Origin: a virus
Strand: one strand, 5' to 3'
IMG/VR virus record: IMGVR_UViG_3300024262_003092
Location: 1-36,702 of that record
DNA length: 36,702 nucleotides
Of the stretch, positions 3,591 through 33,165 are shown piece by piece. A program made the position numbers and the translations under genes. Each line of letters opens with the position of its first letter. The first letter of the stretch is position 1. The notes under the pieces were generated by a model that saw only the letters and a list, made by a program, of their open reading frames with translations, searched no databases and was not told where the DNA came from.

Positions 3591-3592
3591 CA

Positions 3593-4237: not shown

Positions 4238-4395
4238 AAAGTACTTTTTTATTACGCTAATTATATTAAATAGGTATTCATCGTATTGATAAATATGTAT
4301 ACCCAACTCATTATCCAGATAACCACCTTTATGAGGGTTGTGTGGGGGGTTTATAATGTAAATTCTACCATAATTACACATTTTTGTAATTATTT

Positions 4396-4430
4396 TCTCA
4401 CTCCGTTCGTTAAAAAAACCCCCAACCCCT
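4396..4430. repeat. Dispersed repeat, copy 3 (diverged)
   Basis: CTCACTCCGTTCGTT followed by AAAAAAACCCCCAACCCC. It shares the CGTTCGTT core and the C-rich tail with copies 1 and 2 but not the CCGGAACCG part. The tail pairs with GGTGTTGGG at 4437-4446 to form a hairpin. The rest of the 4238-4531 gap has no gene I can support. Confidence 0.5.
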
Positions 4431-4507
4431 TTATAGTGGTGTTGGGTATTAATTATCAATATTAAGTAATGTAATTTAAATATTCAATGTTTTTTCGTTT
4501 TATCTTA

Positions 4508-6804: not shown

Positions 6805-6874
6805 TTAAACTAATAGATTATAAATATATTGTATGGTATTGGAACCGAGTCGGACATTAAACAAAAACCTGTGG

Positions 6875-6886
6875 AGGTATATACCT
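6875..6886. repeat. 12-bp perfect palindrome
   Basis: AGGTATATACCT, 25 nt before the ATG at 6911; could be an operator for the downstream membrane-protein gene. Confidence 0.35.
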
Positions 6887-11615: not shown

Positions 11616-12356
11616 TTAATTTCGTTTCAACACTTCTTTTTTATAGTAGTTATCAAAACCTTTCATCATTTCCGTGATTGTTGGGTTAGTTTCGGTACCA
11701 ATTACCTTATCCACTAAACCAAATTCCTTAGCCTCATCAGAGTTAAACCATTTGTCATTACGTGACAATTCGTAAACCTCATCAAAACTTTTACCTGAGT
11801 TCTCAGCTAATATTTTAAATAACATATAGTTATATTTTTCAGCCTCCTTTTGGTTAATTCTTGTTTCTTGAATATTACCCTGACTTCCGTGACTAACCAT
11901 GTGAGTCATAACTTTAGAGAATATTAGTGAAGAACGTTTACCTTTTGTACCTGAAGATAATAGTATGGAACCCATAGATGCGCACATACCAACATTAGTA
12001 GTACCTACGTCAGACTTAACATAGTTCATAGTATCTCTAATTCCAAGACCTGAAAGTACACTACCTCCCGGAGTGTCCAAATAAAGATTAATATCTTGAG
12101 TGTCGGTGGTATCTAAGAACATTAGTTGTGCTTGGATTATAGAAGCCATTTTACTATTTACATCACTTGAGACCCATATTATCCTATCCATCATTAATCT
12201 TGAGAAAATGTCGAGTTGTGTTGCTCTCATTTCTCTCTCCTCCAATATATAAGGTGTCATTGACCCGGTGACTAACTTACCGTATTGGTCCATTTCTAAT
12301 GATGAAACTCTATGGTCACTCATTGCGTATTTTTGAAATTCTTTTCCGTAATTCAT
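11616..12356 (-). CDS. ClpP-like serine protease
   Basis: 246 aa. Peptidase S14 hallmarks are present: LYLDTPGGSV, the nucleophile in GMCASMGSILLSSGTKGKR (S127), H152 in KVMTHMVSHG, and D201 in SRNDKWFNSDEAKEFGLVDKV. Compared with host ClpP (about 195-210 aa) it has an extra ~35 residues at the N-terminus (MNYGKEFQKYAMSDHR...), where ClpP normally contacts ClpX/ClpA. ClpP forms a barrel-shaped protease fed by an AAA+ unfoldase; no Clp ATPase is in this window, so it would use a host or distant partner, or act as a prohead-type protease. Transcribed alone, ending 2 nt after the palindromic terminator. Confidence 0.93.
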   Translation of the reverse strand: MNYGKEFQKYAMSDHRVSSLEMDQYGKLVTGSMTPYILEEREMRATQLDIFSRLMMDRIIWVSSDVNSKMASIIQAQLMFLDTTDTQDINLYLDTPGGSVLSGLGIRDTMNYVKSDVGTTNVGMCASMGSILLSSGTKGKRSSLIFSKVMTHMVSHGSQGNIQETRINQKEAEKYNYMLFKILAENSGKSFDEVYELSRNDKWFNSDEAKEFGLVDKVIGTETNPTITEMMKGFDNYYKKEVLKRN

Positions 12357-13845: not shown

Positions 13846-14271
13846 ATGTTAAAAACAAAACAAGGTGATACCGTAAAGGTAAATTACACAGGTAAATTAG
13901 AAGATGGTACAATCTTCGACACATCGTTAACTGAAGGTAGAGGTCCTATCGAAGCGAAATTAGGGGAAGGTCAACTAATTAAAGGTTTTGAAAACGCTTT
14001 ATACGACATGGTTGAAGGGGAAAAGAAATCGGTTGAGATTTCTCCTGAAGATGCTTACGGAGAGGTTAAAGATTTCATGATTAGTGAAATACCATTAAAT
14101 CAACTACCGGAAGGAGTTAAAGTTGGTGAAATGTTACAGGGCCAAGGACCTCAAGGTCCCGTCAATGTTAAAGTTTCTGAACTTAAAGAATATGTTGCTA
14201 TAGTAGATGCCAACCACCCATTAGCGGGCAAAAAACTTATATTTGATTTAGAGTTAGTCGGGATTAATTAA
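13846..14271 (+). CDS. FKBP-type peptidyl-prolyl isomerase, SlyD-like
   Basis: 141 aa. Starts with KQGDTVKVNYTGKLEDGTIFDTS, a classic FKBP opening, then GEGQLIKGFENALYDMVEGEKK, the core of the FKBP site. Residues ~70-120 (EDAYGEVKDFMISEIPLNQLP ... GPVNVKVSELKEYVAIVDANHPLAGKKL) form the inserted flap typical of SlyD, and DANHPLAGK is the usual SlyD return to the FKBP fold. It lacks the His-rich metal tail of E. coli SlyD. It speeds proline isomerisation and can act as a chaperone, which fits with DnaK and ClpP in the same region. A strong terminator follows. Confidence 0.92.
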   Translation: MLKTKQGDTVKVNYTGKLEDGTIFDTSLTEGRGPIEAKLGEGQLIKGFENALYDMVEGEKKSVEISPEDAYGEVKDFMISEIPLNQLPEGVKVGEMLQGQGPQGPVNVKVSELKEYVAIVDANHPLAGKKLIFDLELVGIN

Positions 14272-15417: not shown

Positions 15418-15575
15418 AAGAGTTCCTATGGAGAAGTTAGAGAAGTCTTTTGGTCACGCATTAAAACAATCAACAATAAAGTATTATAGATATATAGATA
15501 TATTAAATGATGATTACAGATTACATTTTTTTACAAAGGAAGTTGTAGAATTATTACAGTCGATTGTAATAACTA
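15337..15575 (+). pseudogene. Frameshifted, 3'-truncated leader gene
   Basis: A leader (MLIDTNLQENIRRILRDELG) lies in the frame of the preceding gene, but the continuation GPRLLRRVPMEKLEKSFGHA and KYYRYIDILNDDYRL lies in the +1 frame. A shift near 15400 would join them. Protein-like sequence ends at about 15575, where the frame runs into the antisense of the glycosyltransferase gene. This looks like an old phage gene interrupted by the arrival of the glycan operon. Confidence 0.5.
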
Positions 15576-16120
15576 ATTGGTTGATTCCAAATACCACATT
15601 TCTTTCCGTAGAATTCGAATACCAAATTCCAAAAAAGAAAATCTTTATGGTTAACACCTGGTATATGTTCTTTAGGCCATTTACAATCAACTAAACAAGA
15701 ATGGTGAGATATAACATTACCCGTATCAATTCTACCATAGACAGGTTTACTTGCAATAAGTCTTAACTTACCATCTTTATCAATCTGTTCACCAATTAAC
15801 ATACCTCTAAAATTATGTTCAACACATTCCAAATATTTCATATACATATTTTCATGAAAAATAGTATCGTCATCTAGAAAACAAAAATACCCGTCTTTTA
15901 TCTTACTTAATATGTTGTTTCTTTTTGAGGTTGTGTCACTATCCTCACAATCCACAGGATAAATTTTAATTTGACTATTATTTTTTAAAAATGGTAAATT
16001 AGGTAATTCTCTTTTAGTTGAATAAGATATATGCCAAATTATATCGTCATTTATGGGTATTGAATTATAAACTTGTTCTAATAAATTAAAACGATAAAGT
16101 GGTGTAACTATATGTAACAT
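15554..16120 (-). CDS. Family 2-like glycosyltransferase
   Basis: 188 aa, short for the family (usually 230 or more). HIVTPLYRFNLLEQVYNSI is a GT-A nucleotide-binding start, and FCFLDDDTIFHENMY carries the D-D-D metal/nucleotide-sugar site (near residue 92). The acceptor part has SHHSCLVDCKWP and a final YNQ/YYNRL. It would transfer a sugar from an NDP-sugar in the cytoplasm. Last gene of the four-gene minus operon; its ATG overlaps the aminotransferase stop by one base. The 3' end meets the broken leader gene. Confidence 0.75.
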   Translation of the reverse strand: MLHIVTPLYRFNLLEQVYNSIPINDDIIWHISYSTKRELPNLPFLKNNSQIKIYPVDCEDSDTTSKRNNILSKIKDGYFCFLDDDTIFHENMYMKYLECVEHNFRGMLIGEQIDKDGKLRLIASKPVYGRIDTGNVISHHSCLVDCKWPKEHIPGVNHKDFLFWNLVFEFYGKKCGIWNQPISYYNRL

Positions 16121-17226
16121 TATTTTATTAATTTTTTTATGTTGTCACATACATAGTTTATATCGTCATCAGATAAATTTTGATGTAAAGGTATGTTTAG
16201 ACCTGTTTTATTTAATTTTTCTGAATTATATAACTTAATATTTGTGTTATAAATTGGGTTTAAATGTAGTGGGTGATATCTCAAAGTCGTATATATACCA
16301 AGATCAAATAAATTTTTAGCAACCTCATTTCTTATATTATCGTCCATTTGTATAAAATAAGTGAAATATGAATGAGTCTCGTTTTTATTACAATCAACAG
16401 GTGTTATTAAATTCACATTTTTAAAACTTTCTTGATAATAATCCCATATTTCTTTTCTCCTGTTTTGATTTAAATGTAAGTTTTTTAGTTGAGTTAACGC
16501 TAATGACCCCTCAATATCGGAAGGTAGCATTTTAACATTTGGGTTAGTTATGTTATATTCCCACCAAATTTTATTTGGATATTTTTGTACATTATTAAAC
16601 CCTGAAAATCCAATACCACAATACCTCATTTGTAATGATTTTTCTGATAATTCTTTATTCTTAAAATATATCCCACCACCTTCACCAACGGCAATGTTTT
16701 TAACGGAATCAAAACTCCATATACCAACATCACCAAATGTTCCACAATATTTGTTATCTATTTTAGAATCAACGGCATGTGCGGTATCTTCTATGACGGG
16801 ATATCCTAATTGAATAATTGGGTTAATATCCACGGGTAAACCAGCATAATGAACAACCATTATTGCTGATGTGTTATTAGTTATTTTTTCTTTTATTAAA
16901 TTAATTGTTACGTTTTGTGTAAATAAATCAACATCGCAAAAAACAGGAATTAAATCATTTAATAAAATTGATTGTGCACAACTAACCCAAGTAAATGACG
17001 GTAGAATAACTTCAGAACCTTTAGGAAGATTTAAATTTTTTAACGCCAAATACAATGCGTTAGACCCGGAATCCACCATTAAAAAATTATCAACATTTAA
17101 TCTTTTTTTAAAATCATATTCAAAATTTTTAACGTTAGACCCAATTCCTGTCCAATTATTTTTTAAACAATCAACTACCCCTTCAATATCTTCTTGAGTA
17201 TATTTAGAACCAAAAACTGAAATCAT
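16120..17226 (-). CDS. DegT/DnrJ/EryC1/StrS-family sugar aminotransferase
   Basis: 368 aa, normal length. Shows the fold-type I PLP features: DSGSNALYLALKNL (phosphate loop), EDTAHAVDSK (PLP-contacting D), and SFDSVKNIAVGEGGGIYF with the Schiff-base Lys just before NIAVGEGG. The C-terminal signature YTTLRYHPLHLNPIY is also typical. The family transaminates keto-sugar nucleotides to amino sugars for surface glycans. It overlaps the acyltransferase gene upstream by 4 nt, so an amino group made here could be acylated by that enzyme. Confidence 0.92.
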   Translation of the reverse strand: MISVFGSKYTQEDIEGVVDCLKNNWTGIGSNVKNFEYDFKKRLNVDNFLMVDSGSNALYLALKNLNLPKGSEVILPSFTWVSCAQSILLNDLIPVFCDVDLFTQNVTINLIKEKITNNTSAIMVVHYAGLPVDINPIIQLGYPVIEDTAHAVDSKIDNKYCGTFGDVGIWSFDSVKNIAVGEGGGIYFKNKELSEKSLQMRYCGIGFSGFNNVQKYPNKIWWEYNITNPNVKMLPSDIEGSLALTQLKNLHLNQNRRKEIWDYYQESFKNVNLITPVDCNKNETHSYFTYFIQMDDNIRNEVAKNLFDLGIYTTLRYHPLHLNPIYNTNIKLYNSEKLNKTGLNIPLHQNLSDDDINYVCDNIKKLIK

Positions 17227-17870
17227 ATATTATTATTTTCTCTAATTATTTTACAAGGGTTTCCGTATACAACAACATTATCGGGAATGTCTTTAGTAAC
17301 TAATGAACCAGCACCGATTATGGTATTATCACCTATCTTAACACCATCAATTATATTCGCACCAATTCCTATTTGACAACCTTCACCAATTATAACATTG
17401 CCAGCAATATTAACACCAGGATTTATTGTTGTGTATTCACCAATTACGGTATGATGACCAATACTAACATTTCTATTAATAAATACAAAATCACCAATCT
17501 TTGTGTGACCAGCAATACTTACCAAAGTATTAATGACTATTCCGTTACCTAATTTAACTGTATTAGAGATATCAGAGTTATCCGATATTAGGTTAACCAA
17601 AAGAGTGTCTTTATTTACCTCAAATATATTACTAACTATTTTTCTTATTTTAGGTTTAACAACTCCCAAAGTTACCATTTTGTTACTGATATCCACATCA
17701 TTGGTGATTTCAATGTTAAACTTGGGGTGACAGTATTTTTTATTAGGTATTAGATTTAAATTATTAATTATATCAATATCTGGGTAGATTTCTTGAGAAT
17801 CTAAAATATCAAGTATCATTGTTAACGTACCCTCACTAAGTCCAAGTATTGTTAATTTTTCTATTTCCAT
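17223..17870 (-). CDS. NeuD/PglD-like sugar acyltransferase
   Basis: 215 aa. N-terminal Rossmann-like part (KLTILGLSEGTLTMILDIL), then a left-handed beta-helix of hexapeptide repeats from about residue 105: VIINTLVSIAGHTKIGDFVF, then NRNVSIGHHTVIGEYTTINP and IGIGANIIDGVKIGDNTIIG. H-x at SIGHH is the usual catalytic His region. NeuD/PglD enzymes N- or O-acetylate amino sugars such as sialic acid or bacillosamine precursors. The start overlaps the end of the BKACE gene by 35 nt. Confidence 0.9.
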   Translation of the reverse strand: MEIEKLTILGLSEGTLTMILDILDSQEIYPDIDIINNLNLIPNKKYCHPKFNIEITNDVDISNKMVTLGVVKPKIRKIVSNIFEVNKDTLLVNLISDNSDISNTVKLGNGIVINTLVSIAGHTKIGDFVFINRNVSIGHHTVIGEYTTINPGVNIAGNVIIGEGCQIGIGANIIDGVKIGDNTIIGAGSLVTKDIPDNVVVYGNPCKIIRENNNI

Positions 17871-18672
17871 AACCCAAGTTTTTAAAATCTAATGGTGATA
17901 AAACACCCAAACCCATTTCGTCCATTATCTTACGAATTCTTTGTAATAATTTAATATTAGTTGTTTTAACTTTATTTGTAAAGTATAAATTATCCTCCAA
18001 TCCAATTCTAATTCCGTCAGCGTATAATAAACCTAACAGATTAGATGGCAATTGTTCTTTACCTATACCACCCAAACATAATAAACTATTATTAGGTTTA
18101 TTCTGAATAATTGAATTGAGTGATGCAACATCTGATTGTGCGTTATACATATTACCCAAAATAACATTAATGTAGTGAGGATCCTTTAAGATACCTTTTT
18201 TAATCAAATAGTTAGTGTAGTTTAACATTCCAGAATCAAAACATTCGATCTCAGGAGTAACACCATATTGATCCATTTTTTCAATTAATTTTAAAATAGT
18301 ATCGGGAGAATTAATTGATTCACCAGTCGGGAAATTTAATGAGGACATGGTCAATGATCCCATATCGGGAAGTAATTCTAAGACCTCCGTCCTTCTATCA
18401 ATATTTGGTTCGAATCTACCTGTTAATGAAACACATATGGTTAAATTAGGACAATGTTTCCTAATACCTTCAATTATTGGTTTATAGTAATTTTTATCGC
18501 TACTATTCTTTAATGTCTCAGGGTTTCTAGAATGAATATGAGTAAGAGTTATGCCATACTCATATGCCTCATGAACCTCTTCAATTATTTCAGATGGTAA
18601 TAACGGAGCAAAAGAATTGTCTCTTGTTGTTTGTGTACCTGTTGGGGTAAAGTTAATTATTTTATTTGACAT
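17836..18672 (-). CDS. BKACE family beta-keto acid cleavage enzyme (DUF849)
   Basis: 278 aa. The family's zinc site is visible as THIHSRNP (H46 and H48), and the conserved late motifs are CLGGIG and GIRIGLEDNLYF. Further matches are NFTPTGTQTTRDN at the start and VTPEIECFDSGML in the middle. Known BKACE enzymes (e.g. 3-keto-5-aminohexanoate cleavage, Kce) condense a beta-keto acid with acetyl-CoA. Here it is the first gene of a glycan operon, so the substrate may be a keto intermediate for an unusual acyl group on a sugar. That coupling is inferred from context. Confidence 0.85.
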   Translation of the reverse strand: MSNKIINFTPTGTQTTRDNSFAPLLPSEIIEEVHEAYEYGITLTHIHSRNPETLKNSSDKNYYKPIIEGIRKHCPNLTICVSLTGRFEPNIDRRTEVLELLPDMGSLTMSSLNFPTGESINSPDTILKLIEKMDQYGVTPEIECFDSGMLNYTNYLIKKGILKDPHYINVILGNMYNAQSDVASLNSIIQNKPNNSLLCLGGIGKEQLPSNLLGLLYADGIRIGLEDNLYFTNKVKTTNIKLLQRIRKIMDEMGLGVLSPLDFKNLGYGNRKINNTWT

Positions 18673-18707
18673 AATACTTTCTTAAATATAATCATTATAA
18701 TTTAATT

Positions 18708-18743
18708 GTGAACTATCCAACCACTAAAGATGGTTGGGATTCT
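18708..18743 (-). repeat. IS605-type end hairpin, copy 3 (with deleted tnpB)
   Basis: Read on +: GTGAACTA, then the stem CCAACCA - CTAAAG - ATGGTTGG and GGATTC. Almost the same stem as the right end of the intact element at 30580. Confidence 0.8.
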
Positions 18744-19330: not shown

Positions 19331-20419
19331 ATGAAAAAATTTATATTACTCCTAATATCTATATTTATAGTAGGAAACGCAACAACACAAACCACAGAAA
19401 CCCTAATCACATCTGATTACATTGAAGTATATGATTGGATGGGTGCTTGGTGGTTTAATAATCCCACCACCGGGTATTTTTCAGATATATCAGCTACAGC
19501 ACCTTACAGCGCTGCGATATATGGGAGTGGTAATAATACATATGAACAGGATTGGTATACACTACCATCGGTAACTGTAGATCCAACCAAAGACCATGTT
19601 TTTAAAATGAGACTAGCTGCTCAAACTATATCATCTCCTTTAGCAGCTACAGCAGGTTTAGATGGTGGGGATTATATTACAGTACAATTAAGCCAGAATG
19701 GTGGGAGTTATGTTAGTGAACTAAGAGTGAGTGGGTTTTCAAATGCTACCTGGGATTATTCATCTAACGCAATAGCTACTAAAGTCGTTAATGGTAGTCT
19801 TACTACATTTAGCCCCATTAGTGGTGGAGATAGAAATTCATTAGGTGATGGTTATTCTTATATCGAATTAGTAATACCCGCAGGTCCAACTACTATAGCA
19901 ATTGATATTCAAGCTCGAGCTAATAGACCTGGTGAAGATTGGTGGATGGATAATTTTGAACTATTTGAAATTACTACGTTATTACCCATTGAATTACTTT
20001 ATTTTAATGCTACTCCTATTAATAACCAATACGTCCAATTAGAATGGGCTACTGCGACTGAAATCAATAATGATGGATTTGAAGTATTGAGAAGTACAGA
20101 TGGTGTTGATTTCGAATATATTGCTTGGATTTTAGGAAATGGTAATCAAACAGAAACTCATAAATATTATTATGAAGATTATTCAATCGAAACTGGGATA
20201 ACGTATTATTATAGACTAAAGCAAATCGACTACAATGGTCAGTATGAATATTTCTACATTAAATCTGTAAAATTATTAGAAGCATCAGGTGAAGTACTTT
20301 CAATTAAATATTATTCTTATTTAGGTGAAGAATTTGATACAAAACCAAACCTAAAAGATTATATAGAATGTACTATCTACCAGAATTTAATGGTGTGTAA
20401 AAAAATACAGTTAAATTGA
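19331..20419 (+). CDS. Secreted protein with degenerate T9SS-type C-terminus
   Basis: 362 aa. Signal peptide KKFILLLISIFIVGNATTQ. Residues 25-215 are a beta-sandwich-like domain ending NRPGEDWWMDNFELFEI, typical of extracellular carbohydrate-binding or adhesion modules. Then LLPIELLYFNATPINNQYVQ, LEWATATEINNDGFEVLRS and YYYRLKQIDYNGQYEY, the fibronectin-like stretch that usually precedes a type IX secretion signal in Bacteroidota. The last ~45 residues resemble a T9SS type A domain but lack its usual clean ending. The TGA stop is supplied by the repeat hairpin that begins there, so the C-terminus may have been altered by insertion. A host-like exported protein; role in the phage unknown. Confidence 0.75.
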   Translation: MKKFILLLISIFIVGNATTQTTETLITSDYIEVYDWMGAWWFNNPTTGYFSDISATAPYSAAIYGSGNNTYEQDWYTLPSVTVDPTKDHVFKMRLAAQTISSPLAATAGLDGGDYITVQLSQNGGSYVSELRVSGFSNATWDYSSNAIATKVVNGSLTTFSPISGGDRNSLGDGYSYIELVIPAGPTTIAIDIQARANRPGEDWWMDNFELFEITTLLPIELLYFNATPINNQYVQLEWATATEINNDGFEVLRSTDGVDFEYIAWILGNGNQTETHKYYYEDYSIETGITYYYRLKQIDYNGQYEYFYIKSVKLLEASGEVLSIKYYSYLGEEFDTKPNLKDYIECTIYQNLMVCKKIQLN

Positions 20420-20450
20420 ACTACCCACGAACTAAAGATTCGTGGGATTC
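20417..20450 (-). repeat. Orphan IS605-type end hairpin, copy 5
   Basis: Read on +: TGAACTAC, then the perfect stem CCCACGAA - CTAAAGA - TTCGTGGG, then ATTC. Its first three bases are the stop codon of the secreted-protein gene. Confidence 0.8.
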
Positions 20451-24056: not shown

Positions 24057-25919
24057 TTAGTTAACTTCCTCAAATTCGACATCCGAAGAATCTATATCAA
24101 CTCCACCATCTTCGGATACATTTTCATACATCTTTTGACTGACCGATTGTAATTTGGTGTTCAGGTCGTCCATATACGTTTTAATATTCACCATCTCTTT
24201 TTTAGAGTGAAAATCTTTTAATTTTCCAATCAGACCATTTAATTCCTCTTTATCTTCTTCAGAAATCTTATCTCCCATATCTCCAATAGTTTTATTACTT
24301 TGGAAAATTAAGTTATCTGCCGAATTCAATGTCTCAATCTCTTCTTTCATCTTATTATCGGATTCGGAATTTTCTTCGGCCTCAGCTTTCATTCTTTCAA
24401 TCTCCTCTTTAGAAAGTCCTGATGAGGATTCGATACGAATTGATTGGGTTTTGTTAGTGCCTTTATCCACTGCCGATACGTTTATAATTCCGTTAGCGTC
24501 AATATTGAATATTACTTCGATTTGTGGAATACCCCTTTGAGATGGGGGTAAACCGTCTAAGTGGAAACGCCCAATCGTTTTGTTATCTTTCGACATCGTT
24601 CTTTCACCTTGTAGAATATGAATCTCTACACTCGGTTGATTATCAACGGCGGTTGAGAAAACCTGAGACTTTTTACTTGGTATTGTCGTATTAGAATCGA
24701 TTAACTTTGTAAATATCCCACCCATAGTTTCAATACCTAATGATAGTGGTGTTACGTCTAATAAGAGTACGTCATTAATATCCCCACTTAACACCCCACC
24801 TAATATAGCGGCACCTAAAGCAACTACTTCATCCGGATTAACACCCTTTGAAGGTTCCTTACCGAAGAAATCTTTAACTGCTTTTTGAATTGCTGGAATT
24901 CTTGTTGTACCACCAACTAAAATCACCTCATCAATTTCCCCAATTGTAAGGTTAGCCTTACTCATTGCGGTTTTACAAGGTTGTATTGTTCGTTTAATTA
25001 ATGAATCTGTTAATTGTTCGAATTTAGCCCTCGTTAACTTTGTGACTAAATGTTTAGGACCTGTTGAGTCAGCACTTAAGTAAGGTAGGTTAATATCAGT
25101 CTCAGAGGTCGATGAAAGTTCAATCTTAGCCCTTTCAGCGGAATCACGTAATCTTTGAATAACACCAGGATCGTTAGATAAATCAAACCCATTTTGGGAT
25201 TTGTATTCTGATTTTAAGAAGTCGACAATAACATTGTCAAAATCGTCACCACCTAAGTGACTATCACCGTCAGTCGATAGAACCTCAAAGACGCCATCAC
25301 CTAAATCTAGTATTGATACATCGTGAGTTCCACCACCACAGTCGAATACTGCGATAACCTTGTCACCACCTTTTTTATCCATCCCGTACGCTAATGCCGC
25401 TGCGGTTGGTTCGTTAACTATACGTCTAACGTTTAACCCTGCGATTTCACCAGCTTCTTTAGTTGCTTGTCTTTGAGAATCGTTGAAGTAGGCCGGAACT
25501 GTGATAACAGCTTCGGTAACACTTTCACCTAAGTATTCTTCAGCGGTTTTTTTCATTTTTTGAAGAATTATCGCTGAAATTTCCTGTGGGGAGTATTTTC
25601 TATCTGAAACATCCACCCTAGGTGAGTTATTATCCCCTTTAGAGATTTTATATGACATCTTACCAATTTCACTTTTTGATTCGTCGTAAGTCAAACCCAT
25701 AAATCTTTTAATTGAATAAATAGTTTTTTCCGGATTTGTAACAGACTGTCGTTTTGCCGGGTCACCAATTTTTCTTTCACCTTCGTTTTCAAGAAAGGCT
25801 ACTATCGATGGGGTGGTTCTTTTCCCCTCAGAGTTAGGTATTACGATAGGTTCTGAACCTTCCATAACTGACACACAAGAGTTAGTTGTCCCTAAATCAA
25901 TTCCAATAATTTTTCCCAT
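24057..25919 (-). CDS. dnaK: Hsp70 chaperone DnaK
   Basis: 620 aa, full length. Nucleotide-binding domain: [16 protein letters not shown] at the start, [50 protein letters not shown] and [11 protein letters not shown]. Linker and substrate-binding domain: [17 protein letters not shown], then [20 protein letters not shown]. The helical lid follows and the protein ends VEFEEVN, close to the usual EEV-D/K end. DnaK holds unfolded proteins in an ATP-driven cycle with DnaJ and GrpE, neither of which is encoded here, so host partners are expected. One difference is [12 protein letters not shown] instead of the usual VFDLGGGTFDVS. A chromosomal origin is possible but the neighbours are phage-like. 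Confidence 0.97.
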
Positions 25920-26018: not shown

Positions 26019-26095
26019 CCAATGAAAAAATACTGTCAAAAAGTCAAATTATGTGTTTGTGAATGATAATATGGTCAGTCCCAATTTATATCAAT

Positions 26096-26139
26096 CCACC
26101 GAAAACCCACAAATCTTTAGTTTGTGGGATGTAAGGTGG
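26096..26139 (-). repeat. Nested cassette-end hairpin, copy A
   Basis: Outer stem CCACC / GGTGG around inner CCCACAAA - TCTTTAG - TTTGTGGG. Directly after the stop of the minus cassette gene. Two further copies in the other orientation are at 27943 and 32741. Confidence 0.85.
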
Positions 26140-26141
26140 TT

Positions 26142-26648
26142 TTAACGATTTCTTGGGTTCATTGATACTCCATATATATCGTAAATCTTTTTCATTACCG
26201 ACAAAGATTTTTCTACTGAACCTGGAGTTGTTAAAAAACCTCCTCCATTTGTCGCCTCAATTGATGCGGAATAGTTTTTACCCCCATTTATTTCAATGTA
26301 TAATTTATTTCCTGTTCCTGTTATATCACACTTTACCCCATCAGCCTTTGGGAATGAATTTGGATTCAAAGGGTATAAATCCCAACTTAATGGGTTACCA
26401 ATTTTAACATGGGATCCGTATAAATCATTATATTCATTTAAATATTTCCCTAACATATTAGAGGTTAACTTAACACCATTCCCTGTTGAAGCCTTCCAAC
26501 CCATACCAAATGACGACATTTCAATAACCCCTTTTAAAAAGGTAAACAATCTTTTTTGTAATTCAAGTCCATCATTATTTTCTTCACTTATAACTCTTTT
26601 AACAATTCTAATTAAATCGTTTTCTGTTAATCTTACAATTTTTTTCAT
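26142..26648 (-). CDS. Cassette gene 1: leader-bearing protein
   Basis: 168 aa. Leader IVRLTENDLIRIVKRVISEE, almost the same as in cassette gene 3 at 32345 (RLTESDLVRLVNRVISEQ). The body is different: LQKRLFTFLKGVIEMSSFGM, then LSWDLYPLNPNSFPKADGVK, CDITGTGNKLYIEINGGKNY and SVEKSLSVMKKIYDIYGV. No domain recognised; moderately beta-rich. The ~30 bp before its ATG are identical to those before gene 3, and both end in the same nested hairpin. This argues for a cassette with exchanged body. Confidence 0.7.
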   Translation of the reverse strand: MKKIVRLTENDLIRIVKRVISEENNDGLELQKRLFTFLKGVIEMSSFGMGWKASTGNGVKLTSNMLGKYLNEYNDLYGSHVKIGNPLSWDLYPLNPNSFPKADGVKCDITGTGNKLYIEINGGKNYSASIEATNGGGFLTTPGSVEKSLSVMKKIYDIYGVSMNPRNR

Positions 26649-26662
26649 AATATATTTTTAAT

Positions 26663-26670
26663 TATAAATA
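26663..26670 (-). promoter_or_regulatory. TATTTATA promoter-like octamer (minus)
   Basis: Exact octamer 22 nt before the ATG of cassette gene 1, in the context GATGGATATTTATAATTAAA. Confidence 0.6.
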
Positions 26671-26720
26671 TCCATCAAAAACAAAAAAAATCGTTTTTTT
26701 TTTTTTGATGGATATTTATT
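26664..26720. repeat. Divergent cassette 5' flank
   Basis: Inverted arms around AAATCGTTTT carry ATAAATATCCATC on one side and GATGGATATTTAT on the other, so each diverging cassette gene has the same upstream sequence. A third copy precedes 32345. Confidence 0.75.
26713..26720 (+). promoter_or_regulatory. TATTTATT promoter-like octamer
   Basis: 26 nt before the ATG at 26739 and only 11 nt before the ATG at 26724; the spacing favours 26739 as start. Confidence 0.5.
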
Positions 26721-26738
26721 TGTATGGATAAGATATTA

Positions 26739-27914
26739 ATGAAAGAAGAATTAAATAGAATTAAAGAATTGATGGGTTTGATAAATGAGCAAAACAAATT
26801 TTATCTGGACCAAAAACAATTACAACTACCTTCAGATTACTTAGGTAAAGGTGGTGGTTTTGAGAGAGGTTTATATGGTGGAATGTCCTCTGAAAACTAT
26901 TATAAGTTATTGTCTGAAATACCAACAAGTGAAATTGAAAAAATAAGATTAATTTTCCCACAAGCAAAATGGGAAGAGTTTGCGTTAAAATTATTAAAAA
27001 CTTTAAAGGTGGTAACTGGTGTTTTTAATAATTTAAAAGATGCGATAAATTTTGTTGATAATTTAAAAGAAAAAAATGTTAAAGTCGATGAATTTGTTGT
27101 CGGTTCACATGGAAGTGTGGGAACTTTATTAACGACGCAAAATGGTAGTAGTTATTCTTTTAATACAAATTTTTTAAATAACTTTAAAGATATTCTCCAT
27201 CCAAATAGTAAAGTTTTTTTTACTGCGTGTAAGGGTGCTGATTATTTAGATACTTTAAAAGACGCTGCGGAAAAACTTAATATTGGTGTTTATGGTTCTG
27301 CAGGTATATACAATTATATAACTAATAATTCAGAAAAAGGATTTTATTGGTGTTCACCTCAAAAATTTGAGACCCCAAAAACAAAAGAAAAAATAAACCC
27401 AATAAGTTATAATGAAAAATATGGTTTAATTTATGTAAAATCACTATCGTCTAAGTCTATCTATGACCAAAGCCGTAAAACTAAAATAACAATTAATCGT
27501 GGCGTTTTTGACAATTCAGTTCATAAATTTGAATCTGAATTTGATAGTGGAGGGCAAACTGAGTATTTTCAACCATCCCAAATGAGAAACCAATTATTTT
27601 TAGAAACCGGTAGATTAGATATTAATTTCTGTATTAAATCTTATTTTGTTGATAATTACGGACATTCAAAAGAAAATAAATATAATCCATATGATAAAAA
27701 AAGGAAAGAATTAGAAAATGTTGGATTCATCGATAAATATGTAATAGACAAAATAAAATCAAATGAAATTATTGTTGAAGTTGATGTGGATGGTAAACTT
27801 ACTAATATTAAATCTTTACCATTAATACAAAAACCTATGAATATTACCAATGAATATTTATTGGATAATAATTTATGTAAAAAAGTTTCAAAATCACCAA
27901 TATCATGGATTTAA
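26739..27914 (+). CDS. Cassette gene 2: leader plus caspase-like (His/Cys dyad) peptidase candidate
   Basis: 391 aa from ATG 26739; ATG 26724 would add five residues. Leader KEELNRIKELMGLINEQ ends I-N-E-Q. After a ~90-aa linker, DEFVVGSHGSVGTLL and SKVFFTACKGADYLDTL give H and C at about residues 124 and 164, followed by NIGVYGSAGIYNYI. A strand ending in G-S-H-G and a later strand ending in T-A-C is the layout of clan CD peptidases (caspase, C80 and CHAT-like, DUF4347-like) as I know it. The last ~180 residues are unrecognised. The gene shares its flanks with cassette genes 1 and 3. A packaged protease acting on entry is an attractive but unproven reading. Confidence 0.6.
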   Translation: MKEELNRIKELMGLINEQNKFYLDQKQLQLPSDYLGKGGGFERGLYGGMSSENYYKLLSEIPTSEIEKIRLIFPQAKWEEFALKLLKTLKVVTGVFNNLKDAINFVDNLKEKNVKVDEFVVGSHGSVGTLLTTQNGSSYSFNTNFLNNFKDILHPNSKVFFTACKGADYLDTLKDAAEKLNIGVYGSAGIYNYITNNSEKGFYWCSPQKFETPKTKEKINPISYNEKYGLIYVKSLSSKSIYDQSRKTKITINRGVFDNSVHKFESEFDSGGQTEYFQPSQMRNQLFLETGRLDINFCIKSYFVDNYGHSKENKYNPYDKKRKELENVGFIDKYVIDKIKSNEIIVEVDVDGKLTNIKSLPLIQKPMNITNEYLLDNNLCKKVSKSPISWI

Positions 27915-27942
27915 TTTTTTTTTAAAAAGATAATAGTTAAAA

Positions 27943-27987
27943 CCACCTTTCATCCCACAAACTAAAGATTTGTGGGTTTTTCGGTGG
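27943..27987 (+). repeat. Nested cassette-end hairpin, copy B
   Basis: CCACC, then CCCACAAA - CTAAAGA - TTTGTGGG, then GGTGG; followed by ATTGATATAAAA as in copy C. Lies 29 nt after the stop of cassette gene 2. Confidence 0.85.
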
Positions 27988-28098
27988 ATTGATATAAAAA
28001 AACATATTTTATAAAAAAAATAAATATATATTTTTATATATGTTAAGATAATCCTTAGTTTTAATTAATAATCAAATACTTATAGTTAAACAAACACT

Positions 28099-29076
28099 AT
28101 GGGTAATGATATAATAAAAAAGGGTAGTAAGGGATTGATAGTATCTTATTGGCAAGAATTTTTAAAAAACTTACAATTATACAATTACAAAGTCGATGAA
28201 GATTTTGGTAATCTAACCCATAAATCAACAGTGGAATTCCAAATGGTTAACGGTTTAGTTCCTGACGGTATTGTGGGTAAAAATACGTGGGATAAAGCAT
28301 ATGAGTTAGGGATAATTACTACGGACGAAATGGAAGAACCAGTTGTACCAGAAGATTTTAATATAATAATAAATAAGTCACATATGTCAAAAAATGAATA
28401 TTATACGACAAATGAAGAAAAAGACTGGATTTTTATACACCATACCGCGGGATGGAATAACCCTTACGATACGATTAAACATTGGGGGAGCGATAGTAGA
28501 GGTAGAGTTGCAACAGAATTTGTAATAGGTGGTCAGAAAATAACAAATAACGATAACGAATTTGATGGGGTTACAGTACAATCATTTCCGGAAGGTGGAT
28601 ATGGTTGGCATTTAGGTATTGGTAACAATATAATGCATAGGGCTTCTGTTGGTATTGAGGTTAATAACTTTGGGTATTTAACTGAAGGTGGTTACTACAA
28701 AACAATTGATGGTAATAGAACATGGGTAAAGAAGACATATGGTAAGTTTTATACTTATGTTGGTACTGAGGCTCACCCAAGTCAAGTAGTCGAGTTAGAT
28801 GAGAAATTTAGGGGGTTTAAATACTGGCACAAGTACAGTGATAAACAAATTACGGAATTAGAAAAACTATTGAGGTATATTGGAGATAGAGATGGTATTG
28901 ATATAAGAAAGGGTTTACCTGAATTAGTAAGAGAAAAAGGTGCGAAAGCATTTGATGAATGTAGTGTATCGATGTGTACTAACACTAAAGGTCTATGGTC
29001 GCATACTAATTGTCTAACTACTAAATTTGATATGTTTCCACAACAAGAATTATTAGATATGCTAATTAGTTTGTAA
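28099..29076 (+). CDS. Endolysin: peptidoglycan-binding domain plus N-acetylmuramoyl-L-alanine amidase
   Basis: 325 aa. Residues 8-75 are a PG_binding_1 domain (KKGSKGLIVSYWQEFLKNLQ, then EFQMVNGLVPDGIVGKNTWD). From about 110, DWIFIHHTAGWNNPYDTIKH starts an Amidase_2 domain with a zinc His in IHHTAG; the second half has GIEVNNFGYL, and LWSHTNCLTTKFDMFPQ with the late His and F-D-x-F-P. Amidase_2 enzymes cut between MurNAc and L-Ala of the wall stem peptide. There is no signal peptide, so it depends on a holin, for which 11394 is the candidate. The 184 nt upstream hold cassette hairpin B and an A/T-rich stretch. Confidence 0.9.
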   Translation: MGNDIIKKGSKGLIVSYWQEFLKNLQLYNYKVDEDFGNLTHKSTVEFQMVNGLVPDGIVGKNTWDKAYELGIITTDEMEEPVVPEDFNIIINKSHMSKNEYYTTNEEKDWIFIHHTAGWNNPYDTIKHWGSDSRGRVATEFVIGGQKITNNDNEFDGVTVQSFPEGGYGWHLGIGNNIMHRASVGIEVNNFGYLTEGGYYKTIDGNRTWVKKTYGKFYTYVGTEAHPSQVVELDEKFRGFKYWHKYSDKQITELEKLLRYIGDRDGIDIRKGLPELVREKGAKAFDECSVSMCTNTKGLWSHTNCLTTKFDMFPQQELLDMLISL

Positions 29077-29089
29077 ATCTAAATCTTAA

Positions 29090-29097
29090 TATTTATT
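29090..29097 (+). promoter_or_regulatory. TATTTATT promoter-like octamer
   Basis: 24 nt before the ATG at 29114. Confidence 0.5.
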
Positions 29098-29113
29098 AAT
29101 AAAGATTAAACCA

Positions 29114-30043
29114 ATGAGATTAATAGAAGATAAGAAAGTATCCGATAATTTGGATTACCATTTAAAAAACCAAATATTTTTGACTGAAAACGTTTTCAGA
29201 CCAAATTCCAAAAAATTCTTCGACTTAATTTTTGAGGTTAGAGAACTATATAATAAAAATCTAATAAGGTTAAATGAAAAAGAATTAGAAATAATTGAAA
29301 GTGATTTTGGTAAAATAGTTAAATTAACCACGGGTGAAGAAATTTACTTAGAAGTACCGATGATTAATGAAGAAGCTTTTAGTTGGGATGGTACATACGC
29401 CAATGAAATTGACGAACAAGGTGCAGATACGTATTGGGCACACGATGAGGATAAAATAACTCTCCAAGATATTTTAGAACTTACAAAAGACATTAAAATT
29501 ATAAACTTACCCACTAAAAAACTGGCTAATATTGTCCTAAATTGGGATAATAATCCTGAGGAGATAGAAAGAATTAGTCAAGTAGAAGTTTCATCTCAAT
29601 ACCCTATTTTAATTATGGTAGATGAATGTGGTAAAATTAAATGGATATTAGACGGAAATCATAGAGCACAAAAAGCATTAAGGTCTAATTCAGAAACAAT
29701 ACCTGCCAAACTTATTAAACCATCTAATCTTAATTCTAAATCTAAAAGGATATTTGGTTTAACCGAAGATGAATATAAAGGTAAAGATGTTAGTTTAAAC
29801 AAACCTAAAACAGGGGGGCCTAAAAAGTGGTATGTTTACGTTAAGAACCCATCAACAGGTAAAATTAAAAAAGTTTCTTACGGTTCACCCGATATGAGTG
29901 CTAATTGGAACGATACCGGAGCTAGAAAGTCATTCGAGGCAAGACATCGGTGTGATAAGAAAAAAGATAAAACTAAAGCAGGTTATTGGGCGTGTAGAGC
30001 GCATAAAGATTTTGGTAAGAATGTTCCGGGAAGATTTTGGTAA
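29114..30043 (+). CDS. ParB-like protein with basic C-terminal module
   Basis: 309 aa. The start contains NQIFLTENVFRPNSKKFFDL, with possible cleavage after FLTE. Residues ~175-215 (QYPILIMVDECGKIKWILDG, NHRAQKALRSNSETIPAKLI) match the ParB/sulfiredoxin-like nuclease core, with the DGNHR signature. The last 75 residues are KKWYVYVKNPSTGKIKKVSY, then SFEARHRCDKKK and YWACRAH, a strongly basic module with conserved C and W seen in phage proteins (DUF5872-like, from memory). The combination suggests DNA binding or nicking inside the virion. Stop and next start overlap (TAATG). Confidence 0.7.
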   Translation: MRLIEDKKVSDNLDYHLKNQIFLTENVFRPNSKKFFDLIFEVRELYNKNLIRLNEKELEIIESDFGKIVKLTTGEEIYLEVPMINEEAFSWDGTYANEIDEQGADTYWAHDEDKITLQDILELTKDIKIINLPTKKLANIVLNWDNNPEEIERISQVEVSSQYPILIMVDECGKIKWILDGNHRAQKALRSNSETIPAKLIKPSNLNSKSKRIFGLTEDEYKGKDVSLNKPKTGGPKKWYVYVKNPSTGKIKKVSYGSPDMSANWNDTGARKSFEARHRCDKKKDKTKAGYWACRAHKDFGKNVPGRFW

Positions 30044-30582
30044 TGGACGATATAGAAATTTTAAAAAAGATTATTAATCGACAACTAAAAAAAATGAATA
30101 TTGAAGGTGTTGATAATTTGGAAATCGTAGATATTGAACGTAGAGATGGGTTTTTACCTAATAAAATTATGGTAGGTGTATCCCCGACGCTTAAATACTC
30201 TGAACGTAGAGTAGTATGGCCTCAAGTATATCATATGGTTATGGATACCGTAGAATCAATTGGTTTACATATTGATAAATGGGATGTAGTACCTGTTGCG
30301 GTTGAGAGTAAATCTGACAAACACCCATTTAACGAAACCGTAGTTGGTGAAAGTAGAATTAGAACATTTGATAAAGATGTGTTAACCGAAGAACTTGTTT
30401 GGCATAGAGATAGAGAAGACCGTTTAGTCGAAATTATAGATGGGAATGGTTGGGAACTCCAAATGGACAATCAATTACCGGTCAAAATGAATAATGGGGA
30501 TACGTTTATTATACCTGAAGGTGTTTATCATAGGGTTAAACGTGGTAATGATAAATTAGTTATTAAAATAACCAACTTGTGA
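30043..30582 (+). CDS. Small alpha/beta domain fused to a phage cupin
   Basis: 179 aa from the ATG at 30043. Residues 1-90 (DDIEILKKIINRQLKKMNIE, VVWPQVYHMVMDTVESIGLH) have the helix - strand - helix style of the small operon proteins at 8737-10077. Residues 100-179 are a cupin: EELVWHRDREDRLVEIIDGN, GWELQMDNQLP, then GDTFIIPEGVYHRVKRG. The H-x-D ... E ... G-W-x-x-Q-x-D ... H-R signature is frequent in T4-like phages. Metal binding by the two His and E/D is expected; enzymatic function unknown. The TGA stop belongs to the IS605 right-end repeat, as in the gene at 19331. Confidence 0.75.
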   Translation: MDDIEILKKIINRQLKKMNIEGVDNLEIVDIERRDGFLPNKIMVGVSPTLKYSERRVVWPQVYHMVMDTVESIGLHIDKWDVVPVAVESKSDKHPFNETVVGESRIRTFDKDVLTEELVWHRDREDRLVEIIDGNGWELQMDNQLPVKMNNGDTFIIPEGVYHRVKRGNDKLVIKITNL

Positions 30583-30609
30583 ACTACCCAACCACTAAAG
30601 ATGGTTGGG
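30580..30609 (-). repeat. IS605 right-end hairpin, copy 6
   Basis: Perfect 8-bp stem CCCAACCA / TGGTTGGG with loop CTAAAGA. Contains the tnpB stop codon, so the tnpB 3' end, the expected guide-RNA (omega/reRNA) scaffold and the IS end coincide here. Confidence 0.85.
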
Positions 30610-31780
30610 CTTCAGGAATCACAGACTCACCTAATGGCAACGCCTCCTCCTGTTTTTGTTTAATGTCCGATTCTATTCCATAACCAGACAATATGTTTAT
30701 TCCTTGTTTCAGGATGTTTTTACTTGCGTTTAAATCTCTATCGTGATGTTCATTACAAGAAGGACAAGTCCATTCTCTAATAGAAAGATTTAAATCTTGG
30801 TTTATCCACCCACAATTAGAACAAGTTTTACTAGATGGAAAAAATCTATCAATTTTAACGAATGATTTATCATTCCATCTTGATTTATACTCTAACATTG
30901 TGTAGAACATACCTAAACTAACATCAGATAATGATTGAGCCAATTTATGATTTTTCATCATATTCTTAACTGACAAATCTTCTACAGATATAATGTCGTG
31001 GTTTTTGACAATTTCTGTTGATACTTTATGTAAGTAATCTTTTCTGACATTTGTTATTTTTTCGTGAACTAAAGATAATTTAATTTTTTGTTTTTGTCTA
31101 CTATTACTATCTTTTTGTTTTTTAGATAGTTGTCTTTGTTCGTATTTTAGTTTTTTTAATTTAGATTTTAAAACTTTAATATTTTCATAAGTTTTTCCAT
31201 CTGAAAGTATCGCCAAATCTTTTATACCAGTATCAATACCAATACTTGAACCTGTTTTATCAAATGGTTTATGATTAACTTCACAAGTTATGCTAACATA
31301 ATATTTTCCTGTTGTTGATTTGGTTATTGTTGCAAATAATATTTCACCTTCTAATTCTCTATGTAATTTTATTTTAATCCCTTCTTTAAATTTAGGAATG
31401 ATTAACCGTTCATTATTAATTAAAACATTTTGTGGTATTTTGAAACTTTGCCTGTCATATTTTGATTTGAATCTTGGAAACTGATTTTGTTTATTAAAAA
31501 AGTTTTTATATGCCGAATCAAGATTTCTAATTGATGATTGTAATGATTGTGAATTAATTTCTTTTAACCAATCAAATCCTTCTTCTTTTTTTAAATCGGT
31601 TAGTGTTCTTGCGTTATCATAATAATTTAATGAAGTTTTTTCGTTTAAATATTTTTCTTTTCTTTCGTGAAGAAACCTATTAAACACAAATCTACAAGCG
31701 CCAAAATGTTTGGATAATAACTCCATTTGTTCTGATGTAGGTTCTATTCTAAACTTATATGATTTGTGAATAATCTTCAT
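30584..31780 (-). CDS. tnpB: TnpB, RNA-guided nuclease of IS605
   Basis: 398 aa, usual length. N-terminal KSYKFRIEPTSEQMELLSKH and FPRFKSKYDRQSFKIPQN (OrfB_IS605 domain), RuvC-I SIGIDTGIKDLAILSDGK (D183), RuvC-II ISVEDLSVKNM (E267), zinc ribbon C320-x-x-C323 ... C339-x-x-C342 in TCSNCGWINQDL and TCPSCNEHHDRDLNASKNI, with RuvC-III D347/D349. All catalytic residues are present, so it should be active. TnpB uses an RNA from the element's right end to cut the donor site, which keeps the IS from being lost. The C-terminus (SVIPEAQPSLVVG) is encoded by the right-end hairpin. Confidence 0.96.
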   Translation of the reverse strand: MKIIHKSYKFRIEPTSEQMELLSKHFGACRFVFNRFLHERKEKYLNEKTSLNYYDNARTLTDLKKEEGFDWLKEINSQSLQSSIRNLDSAYKNFFNKQNQFPRFKSKYDRQSFKIPQNVLINNERLIIPKFKEGIKIKLHRELEGEILFATITKSTTGKYYVSITCEVNHKPFDKTGSSIGIDTGIKDLAILSDGKTYENIKVLKSKLKKLKYEQRQLSKKQKDSNSRQKQKIKLSLVHEKITNVRKDYLHKVSTEIVKNHDIISVEDLSVKNMMKNHKLAQSLSDVSLGMFYTMLEYKSRWNDKSFVKIDRFFPSSKTCSNCGWINQDLNLSIREWTCPSCNEHHDRDLNASKNILKQGINILSGYGIESDIKQKQEEALPLGESVIPEAQPSLVVG

Positions 31781-31870
31781 ATATTATAAATATCTTGATT
31801 TCCTACAAAAGACAGAATTTTTGTAAAATGTTTGTATTCTGTGAAAACATATTTACAAAAATTCTTTATT

Positions 31871-32281
31871 ATGTCAAAAAAATCAAATTACATTACAACA
31901 AATCGTTCAAAACACTATCTGAAAATTCATTTAATATTTGTTTGTAAATATCGTAAACCTTTACTTATGGGTAATTTAAATGAAGATGTGAAAACTATAT
32001 TGGAAAATATTACAAATAATTCAGATTTTAGTATTGAGGTTATGGAATCAGATATTAATCACATTCATTTTTTAATTAGATATATTCCTCGTTTATCTGT
32101 TTCGTCAATTGTTCGTAAATTAAAACAAGAATCAACAAAACAAATTTGGTCTTTGTATTCTGATGTTTTAAGTCAAGAATTTTGGTTAGAAAAAACTTTT
32201 TGGTCTGATGGTTACTTTGCTTGTTCAATTGGTGAAGCATCACCAGATACAATCAGAGAATATATTTTAAATCAAGGTTAA
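31871..32281 (+). CDS. tnpA: TnpA, Y1 HUH transposase of IS605
   Basis: 136 aa from the ATG at 31871 (a start at 31832 would add 13 residues). The HUH motif is INHIHFLIR with H64 and H66, and the catalytic Tyr is Y131 in TIREYILNQG. Length and order fit IS200/IS605 TnpA, which cuts and rejoins single-stranded ends at hairpins. Given nine related hairpins in the window, this enzyme may also act on some of them in trans. Confidence 0.95.
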   Translation: MSKKSNYITTNRSKHYLKIHLIFVCKYRKPLLMGNLNEDVKTILENITNNSDFSIEVMESDINHIHFLIRYIPRLSVSSIVRKLKQESTKQIWSLYSDVLSQEFWLEKTFWSDGYFACSIGEASPDTIREYILNQG

Positions 32282-32295
32282 AAATATTTTTTAAA

Positions 32296-32344
32296 AAAAT
32301 CGTTTTTTTTTTTTTTGATGGATATTTATAATTAAAAATATATT
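32296..32344 (+). repeat. Cassette 5' flank, third copy
   Basis: AAAAAATCG, a T run, GATGGATATTTATAATTAAA and AATATATT up to the ATG. Matches the flank of cassette gene 1 through its start codon and leader. Confidence 0.8.
32323..32330 (+). promoter_or_regulatory. TATTTATA promoter-like octamer
   Basis: Exact octamer 22 nt before the ATG at 32345; same position as in cassette gene 1. Confidence 0.6.
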
Positions 32345-32731
32345 ATGAAAAAAATTGTAAGACTAACCGAATCTGATTTAGTAAGATTGGTTAATAGAGT
32401 TATAAGTGAACAATATGATGAAACTTTGAAAAAAGAACTCCAAAATATTGGTGGAAATTATCAACCCATTAAACTTTTTTCTGATAAAACCGAAAAAAAT
32501 TTGGTGGGTGTAACTTTTTTTGATGAGGTTTTTAAAAATGAGGATGGTTCAATTCATTTATATCCTGGTGAGATAAAATTTAGCCCAACATTAGGAAGTA
32601 AAAGTGGTTATAAAGTGCTTTTATTTAAATGTGGGACACAGGGATTATTAAGTAATGGTAATGGTAAAATATTATATAATAGCGAATTAGAAAATTACTT
32701 AAAAAGTAAAACTTGTGGTAAAAAAATCTAA
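32345..32731 (+). CDS. Cassette gene 3: leader-bearing protein
   Basis: 128 aa. Leader RLTESDLVRLVNRVISEQ ends I-S-E-Q. The body (NIGGNYQPIKLFSDKTEKNL, VGVTFFDEVFKNEDGSIHLY, KFSPTLGSKSGYKVLLFKCG) is beta-rich and unrelated to cassette gene 1 despite the shared leader and flanks. Function unknown. It sits between the IS605 left end and nested hairpin C. Confidence 0.7.
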   Translation: MKKIVRLTESDLVRLVNRVISEQYDETLKKELQNIGGNYQPIKLFSDKTEKNLVGVTFFDEVFKNEDGSIHLYPGEIKFSPTLGSKSGYKVLLFKCGTQGLLSNGNGKILYNSELENYLKSKTCGKKI

Positions 32732-32740
32732 AGTTAAAAA

Positions 32741-32785
32741 CCACCTTTAATCCCACAAACTAAAGATTTGTGGGTTTTTCGGTGG
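32741..32785 (+). repeat. Nested cassette-end hairpin, copy C
   Basis: Identical in both stems to copy B (CCACC / GGTGG; CCCACAAA - CTAAAGA - TTTGTGGG). The next gene's ATG follows the shared tail ATTGATATAAA directly. Confidence 0.85.
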
Positions 32786-32796
32786 ATTGATATAAA

Positions 32797-33165
32797 ATGA
32801 AAACTACTAAGTTGAATGACATAATGAATAGGTTCTTGGAAAACAGGGAATTTAAATATAAAGGACCTATATTACCCGGGGAATCCATACCAAATTCAGA
32901 CATAGATATTAAAATTAAGGTTGTTGGTACAAAAGAACTGATAGTTGTTGGGGAATATTATGATTATACGGTTATTGATATTGTCTTAGTCAGGTTTAAT
33001 GATAAGTTTAGTAGTATATTTTTCAATGAATCGTTTAAACCTACGAGTGAGATGTTGAGTAATTTCAGTATTTTTAGTTGGCGACTTGAGGATTATGTTA
33101 GGTCAATATTAAAACCATTCGATATGAAAGTGAAAATTAAGGTAAATAGTATAACATATTTGTAG
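32797..33165 (+). CDS. Small alpha/beta phage protein
   Basis: 122 aa: LNDIMNRFLENREFKYKGPI, then DIDIKIKVVGTKELIVVGEY, YDYTVIDIVLVRFND and a final WRLEDYVRSILKPFDMKVKI. The order helix - strands - helix - strand fits the loose family at 5937 and 8737-10077, including the hydrophobic strand pair after the last helix. The ATG begins immediately after the cassette hairpin, so its leader RNA may derive from it. Confidence 0.6.
   Translation: MKTTKLNDIMNRFLENREFKYKGPILPGESIPNSDIDIKIKVVGTKELIVVGEYYDYTVIDIVLVRFNDKFSSIFFNESFKPTSEMLSNFSIFSWRLEDYVRSILKPFDMKVKIKVNSITYL

Follow-up and report, generated by a model that had tools for sequence, protein, structure and literature searches.

Insertion sequences of the IS200/IS605 family, such as IS605, IS608, and ISDra2, combine a Y1 transposase TnpA with TnpB and subterminal hairpin ends, and they insert at a fixed short target that is not duplicated. 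The targets are TTGAT for ISDra2 and TTAC for IS608, and the elements are described as having only genes for transposition and regulation (PMC8612924). The window described in this article—the whole stretch of 36,702 nucleotides of IMG/VR virus record IMGVR_UViG_3300024262_003092, positions 1 to 36,702—contains an element of the same build, with TTTAT as its target. Compared with the known systems, it exhibits a third, variable gene between tnpA and the left end (LE). Most probably, an IS200/IS605 transposon of large T4-like phages gained a cargo slot at this position and carries leader-tagged cargo that is exchanged. IS200/IS605 elements, which are described among the simplest mobile elements, would then be able to carry and renew genes, and the swappable slot would link RNA-guided TnpB transposons to the effector traffic of phages.

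Three further systems are close to this locus. In T4, short N-terminal propeptides—capsid-targeting sequences (CTSs)—send divergent internal proteins into the head and are cut by gp21; CTSs have been suggested as a route for various proteins into capsids (PMC9026906). The T4 proteins IPI–IPIII and Alt likewise consist of a short leader before divergent bodies, are cut by gp21 after a glutamate, and vary in content between phages (PMC9026906), whereas here the cut and the packaging are predicted, the leader is longer (22 aa, with an LTESDL core), and it stands on far more genes, some of them transposon-borne. The PATEs (palindrome-associated transposable elements) of Haloquadratum are transposase-less and have IS605-type palindromic ends; they are too short for a transposase, and their description, as far as consulted, mentions no cargo (PMC3119063), whereas the transposase-less derivatives reported below keep an intact cargo gene. 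For plasmids, it is known that TnpB can bias the spread of an IS200/IS605 element through a pool of genome copies (PMC11870625). A phage-infected cell is a comparable pool, and the plasmid case is without cargo. Constant trafficking ends with exchangeable effector parts, and displaced remnants behind the new end, are also features of polymorphic toxins and integron cassettes. The present locus differs from these by having no integrase or attC site and by its carrier, an IS200/IS605 element. Ten proteins encoded in this region gave no integrase among their Pfam and PHROG matches, and the hairpin is an IS end; an integron gene cassette was therefore rejected. Searches of the open-access literature gave no such IS200/IS605 cargo slot and no mention of the leader, subscription papers lying outside their scope.

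Architecture of the element and its cargo slot

The element was delimited by its alignment limits in independent copies and by a clean join of its flanks. On these sequence grounds, it spans 30579–32796, is inserted at TTTAT, and has gene 32345 inside. Its parts, in the order right-end hairpin, tnpB, tnpA, gene 32345, and LE, are the following:

30579–32796: the complete element of the IS200/IS605 family (2218 bp), passenger gene included
30579–30613, minus strand: right end (RE), hairpin CCCAACC-ATCTTTAGT-GGTTGGG plus TAGTTCAC, at the tnpB end
30584–31780, minus strand: tnpB, 398 aa; Pfam OrfB_IS605 (7.4e-29) and Cas12f1-like_TNB (3e-23)
31871–32281, plus strand: tnpA, Y1 transposase; Pfam Y1_Tnp (1.8e-33), HUH motif HIH, tyrosine in REYILNQG
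32282–32329, plus strand: passenger-slot 5′ junction, AAATATTTTTTAAAAAAATCG-T(14)-GATGGATATTTAT, holding a promoter-like TATTTAT; constant across slot elements
32345–32410, plus strand: passenger leader, MKKIVRLTESDLVRLVNRVISE, a predicted capsid-targeting propeptide with the end I-S-E
32411–32731, plus strand: passenger body C, the variable remainder of a 128-aa protein
32737–32796, plus strand: nested hairpin C, the LE, ending at the target ATAAA, which reads TTTAT on the opposite strand

Alignments to other copies start at 30576–30579 (L203, L204, L250/L251, and L259) and end at 32796–32797 (L203, L204, L252, and L250), and the outer flanks differ on both sides. The RE, which folds with −16.8 kcal/mol, is 100% identical in L203 and L204. 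TnpB exhibits RuvC-type D/E/D motifs (GIDTG, VEDL, and DRDLNAS) and a zinc ribbon with two CxxC. The hairpins of both ends are subterminal and lie at the alignment boundaries, without a pattern of terminal inverted repeats, and ATAAA (TTTAT) borders the LE in all insertions compared. Joining the window's flanks gives ...ACC AAC TTA TAA AATGAAAAC, in which the target is not duplicated; gene 30043 herein retains its protein and stop (...ITNL, TTA TAA), and the ATG of 32797 directly follows. The element thus shows the Y1 HUH transposase, the RuvC-type motifs of TnpB, the subterminal hairpins, and the fixed, unduplicated target of the family. A content of transposition genes only, a usual but not a defining trait, is absent from the seven elements with a passenger slot. 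The window has surrounding genes—dnaK (in L107), 29114, 30043, 33185, and later ones—in common with L107 and L041/L094. Between these genes, the two loci have either no leader gene or different ones, of 101 aa and 445 aa; L107 contains an unrelated gene at the position of the window's IS.

The identity of the nested hairpin was determined from its 23-nt core, which was found in 57 viral stretches that were compared together with their neighbors. Where the context is the nested one (CCACC...CGGTGGAnTTATATAAA), many copies form the tnpA-side boundary of an IS200/IS605 element. Hence, the nested hairpin is the left end of such elements and no free cassette end. In copies lacking tnpA, it lies at the far side of tnpB. 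Other copies of the core, flanked by GTGAACTA...GGGCTTC, represent right ends next to tnpB. The same LE terminates IS200/IS605 elements in L109, L147, L148, L158, L166, L176, L178, L180, and L186. Hairpins A, B, and C had at first been read as intrinsic terminators and then as derivatives of the RE; both readings were overturned by the loci anchored on tnpA. A strict nested-hairpin pattern gave no match in viral contigs, which is misleading because the loci found via the 23-nt core carry the nested form. Two groups of contigs (L151, L152, L154, L162, L167, and L174; L168, L181, L184, and L190) have identical nested LEs and surroundings with no transposase nearby and are possibly further transposase-less insertions.

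The slot becomes apparent when loci around relatives of the window's TnpA are compared (56 viral and 80 from bacterial or archaeal genomes). In about 100 TnpA-anchored loci, a recognizable end hairpin usually lies only ~8–30 nt past the tnpA stop, and this holds for Sphingobacterium and further bacteria as well as for many phages. Some distant or damaged copies showed no end hairpin. In the slot clade, this distance is 317–1493 nt, which was found only in the window and six other viral sequences: L202/L176, L203/L166, L204/L186, L252/L178, L180, and L250/L251, the last being two contigs of the same element that are counted once. L259 is an additional partial copy. All slot elements exhibit the same post-tnpA junction, AAATATTTTTT..AAAATCG-T(n)-GATGGATATTTAT (tolerating a single exchange between A and G in either direction), given as a fixed string by AAATCAAGGTTAAAAATATTTTTT. 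It stands identically and directly 3′ of tnpA in L166/L203, L173/L250, L176/L202, L178/L252, L180, and L186/L204. In a TnpA tree, the four complete slot copies form one branch (SH-aLRT 97), and all relatives with a scored short LE distance (27 of 27) are without a slot.

Passengers, their probable exchange, and transposase-less forms

The first-pass annotation of the window had singled out three genes as exchangeable cassettes with a common flank and hairpin but different bodies. Besides passenger C, these are the following two, which stand head to head with an LE outside each and no RE:

26083–26145, minus strand: LE copy A, nested hairpin; 95% identical to LE C over 42 nt, 93–95% to LEs elsewhere
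26142–26648, minus strand: passenger A, 168 aa; its 5′ 129 nt (26572–26700) are 87% identical to passenger C (32293–32421), its body is without relatives
26649–26723: fused slot 5′ junctions, head to head, ATAAATATCCATC...TCG...GATGGATATTTAT; AT-rich, no tnp genes, no RE
26724–27914, plus strand: passenger B, 396 aa, with an alternative start at 26739 in the same frame; own leader class ending in RIKELMGLINEQ
27937–27999, plus strand: LE copy B, nested hairpin; 91% identical to C over 76 nt, 95–97% to the LEs of L166, L180, and L186

The resemblances that had been described among them are all found. The flank GATGGATATTTAT stands at 26664–26676 (minus), 26707–26719 (plus), and 32317–32329 (plus), passengers A and C are near-identical through start and leader, and an almost identical nested hairpin of ~62 nt follows each gene. 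This hairpin folds as a nested pair of stems at −18 to −19 kcal/mol, with z scores of −3.5 to −3.9, and a degenerate pattern of it matches the window at exactly the places A, B, and C, with none expected in shuffled sequence. Passenger B has its 5′ junction and LE in common with the other slot genes but not its leader class. The three bodies are mutually dissimilar, as had been stated, and give no relatives in Pfam, PHROG, or phage records; for A and B, the scan of viral contigs also gave none. Two points were absent from that annotation: the tnpB/tnpA pair directly upstream of 32345, and the TATTTAT inside the flank, a general upstream motif of genes in these phages. For passenger B, a possible caspase-like H...C pattern was spotted by eye. 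Its single-sequence models are poor (pLDDT 35.8 for the whole, 63.6 for a fragment) and Foldseek gave no match at E ≤ 0.001, so no fold is assigned.

Exchange is supported by the comparison of the slot elements. Where both transposase genes survive, their backbones are 92–96% identical. Neither the 5′ junction nor the LE varies among the seven elements, yet their slots contain six unrelated bodies; L259 adds a seventh, and the window's A and B come on top. Body C has a 94% identical copy only in L202/L176, and the other slot elements carry unrelated bodies. The largest body is that of L250 (476 aa), with a further leader type, MGNILISENDREYILGLYGIIRED. Between the window and L203/L204, identity is 91–92% in tnpB, 93–94% in tnpA, 87% in the junction, and 73–76% in the leader; it falls to 43–47% in the body, without a blastn match, and returns to 88–89% in the LE. 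By blastn, homology between elements stops at 32403–32423 and restarts at 32737. The break brackets the last glutamate codon of the leader (32408–32410), that is, the predicted cut after E22.

Hence, in related phage sequences, other bodies do lie between the flank and the hairpin, and because elements of the same backbone carry different bodies, the bodies are not tied to their flanks. Of the cassette interpretation, exchange is supported, but the unit is not: for 32345, it is the whole transposon (30579–32796). Exchange had been attributed to homologous or hairpin-mediated recombination. Breakpoints at the leader end fit a homologous 5′ crossover in common leaders; nothing points to the hairpin.

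In L203, 29 codons past its own stop match the terminal part of the L252 body at 90% and run without a gap into the LE. This stretch, L203:5785–5900, appears as a displaced L252-type body tail behind the stop of the new body. The L203 body itself shares 45% identity with a leader gene of L118, an ordinary gene that has a regular terminator and lacks an IS end. The core of the L250 body is 67%, 57%, and 50% identical to ordinary genes in three phage records of 150–300 kb, where these homologues have other leaders and other C termini. Judged from such similarities, the bodies come from, or at least also occur in, the ordinary phage gene pool. Set beside L250, L340, L341, and L342 show a modular protein with a conserved N-terminal core and a differing leader class; the C-terminal part is either peptidoglycan-binding-repeat-like by eye or, in L250, a domain that occurs alone in L343.

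Some copies have lost most of tnpB and tnpA. L250/L251 retain the RE with the tnpB end (142 nt), the end of tnpA with the junction (168 nt), the passenger, and the LE; L259 retains the RE with the tnpB end (120 nt), the junction, and the passenger, and its stretch ends before the LE. Passengers A and B, which align to other elements only in the flank/leader and the LE, look like a rearranged pair of such transposase-less forms. The PATE trait of IS605-type ends without a transposase is seen in L250/L251, which have RE and LE without intact transposase genes; A and B have the LE only, and L259 ends before its LE.

In the proposed mechanism, the slot would hold one gene composed of the promoter-like motif of the phage, a leader copied from the phage's leader genes, and an exchanged body. 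Transcription of the passenger would start from its own motif and probably terminate at the LE hairpin after the stop codon. Bodies would be swapped by recombination with the 5′ crossover in the common promoter/leader; since the same phages also have this leader on many of their chromosomal genes, recombination within it could replace the body. The 3′ side of the swap is perhaps illegitimate, as the remnant in L203 suggests. TnpA would move the element as single-stranded DNA among TTTAT sites of phage genomes, and TnpB may help it to spread when several phage genomes co-infect a cell.

The leader and the predicted route into phage heads

A pattern of the first 12 leader residues matches at least 120 stretches of viral contigs, and the matches listed, on which all leader counts are based, yield a family of 148 distinct proteins. 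Residues beyond the pattern are also conserved (R-[IL]-V-K-R-V-I-x-E), and conservation stops after E. An [ILV]xE stands at the leader end in 137 of the 148 proteins (93%), compared with a background of 1.3% per position. Behind it, the bodies fall into 120 clusters. TATTTAT is located upstream of 101 of the 148 genes (9.4 expected).

The end [ILV]-x-E is, by its sequence, the motif of a T4-type prohead protease; the related protease of SPN3US cuts after A-x-E (PMC5694885). Among 46 records with leader genes, the gp21-type protease family occurs in 25 and gp23 in 25; both occur in all 11 records above 190 kb, and Peptidase_S77 (gp21) is present in 17 of the 18 of at least 137 kb. The gp23 of these phages exhibits a conserved LINE|A at about residue 60, matching the N-terminal place. 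In two records, a leader gene lies near the prohead-protease gene (G058, S77 at 267060–267536 and leader at 267665; G023, S77 at 49857–50303 and leader at 48689). With the [ILV]xE end, the S77 and gp23 of the leader phages, and the precedent of the T4 CTS, head packaging and injection are the best reading of the leader: it would target the cargo into the prohead, a gp21-type protease would cut after [I/L/V]-x-E, and the head-packaged cargo would probably enter the next host by injection. The leader would also make it possible to recognize, by sequence, a very large collection of phage proteins that are candidates for injection and have hardly any annotation. A tblastn of the leader against named phages gave no match, perhaps because the query is too short.

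A stronger version of this explanation is a dedicated payload shuttle, in which the slot draws its bodies from the phages' stock of head-packaged, injected proteins, TnpB drives the element into co-infecting genomes, and the cargo is delivered before gene expression in the next host begins; we propose it tentatively, as an idea that may well be wrong.

Several points weigh against the proposed cargo slot and its packaged cargo. The presence of S77 lends weak support, because large T4-like phages can be expected to have this protease whether or not they carry the leader: of 15 other large phages used as a control, 8 contain S77, most of them with no exact match to the leader pattern, and 2 of the 15 contain that pattern. 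The window, being a 36.7-kb fragment, contains neither gp21 nor gp23, the protease region lying outside, and it is assigned to the T4-like phages by its leaders, promoter motif, and common genes. The leader was likened to the T4 CTS by its N-terminal position, its end in glutamate, and the divergent bodies behind it, and packaging, cleavage, and movement of the element are all read from sequence. The elements are few, namely seven with a slot and one partial copy; copies A and B have an LE but no RE, which makes their own mobility putative; and the empty site is derived from the joined flanks and was seen in no relative.

An unlikely but serious alternative accepts the transposon as described and takes the leader as a membrane, folding, regulatory, or translation-start region of late genes. 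The leader is basic and could serve such a purpose, and it is absent from the literature searched; the sharp stop of conservation after E22 with I/L/V at −2, which is the gp21 rule, speaks for a cleaved propeptide, as do the LINE|A in the major capsid protein of the same phages, their own gp21, and the leader genes near S77 in G058 and G023. It is improbable that no exchange took place in the element and that the passengers reflect independent captures, each by insertion beside a phage leader gene and use of a distal LE. Many leader genes would be open to capture, and LE copies without a nearby transposase could serve as distal ends, but all passengers are joined to tnpA by one and the same junction, the internal LE is missing, the TnpAs form a single clade, and L203 retains the L252-type tail, so that one capture followed by replacement needs fewer events. 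About as improbable are ordinary paralogous phage genes with late promoter, common leader, and intrinsic terminator, created by operon architecture and duplication beside a coincidental IS: the TATTTAT motif and the leader are indeed widespread and the hairpin followed by T5 resembles a terminator, but the hairpin also closes IS200/IS605 elements without such a gene, the post-tnpA junction is constant in seven elements located in different sequences, and the terminators behind ordinary leader genes are of other kinds, as in L107, L118, and L080.

Other features of the window

Two solitary right-end-like hairpins (TGAACTA..CCCA..ACTAAAGAT..TGGG) are located at 18697–18742 and 20405–20450 with no tnpB beside them, the latter overlapping the stop codon of gene 19331. 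Both are probably remains of related IS200/IS605 elements. At 6820–6877, a fragment of a tnpB 3′ end (83%, inverted relative to 30643–30700) appears as an older IS remnant. A GC-rich 54-nt repeat (TCACTTCGTTCGTT...CCCCC) occurs three times amid AT-rich sequence, at 1283–1336, 2594–2647, and 4383–4436. A tRNA-Met is located at 3517–3591. Host-like genes, named by eye, include dnaK (24057–25919), a ClpP-like gene (11616–12356), an FKBP-like gene (13846–14271), a thioesterase-like gene (10680–11096), and a sugar aminotransferase/acetyltransferase-like cluster (15554–18672), and several host-like genes of the window have homologues in the loci compared.

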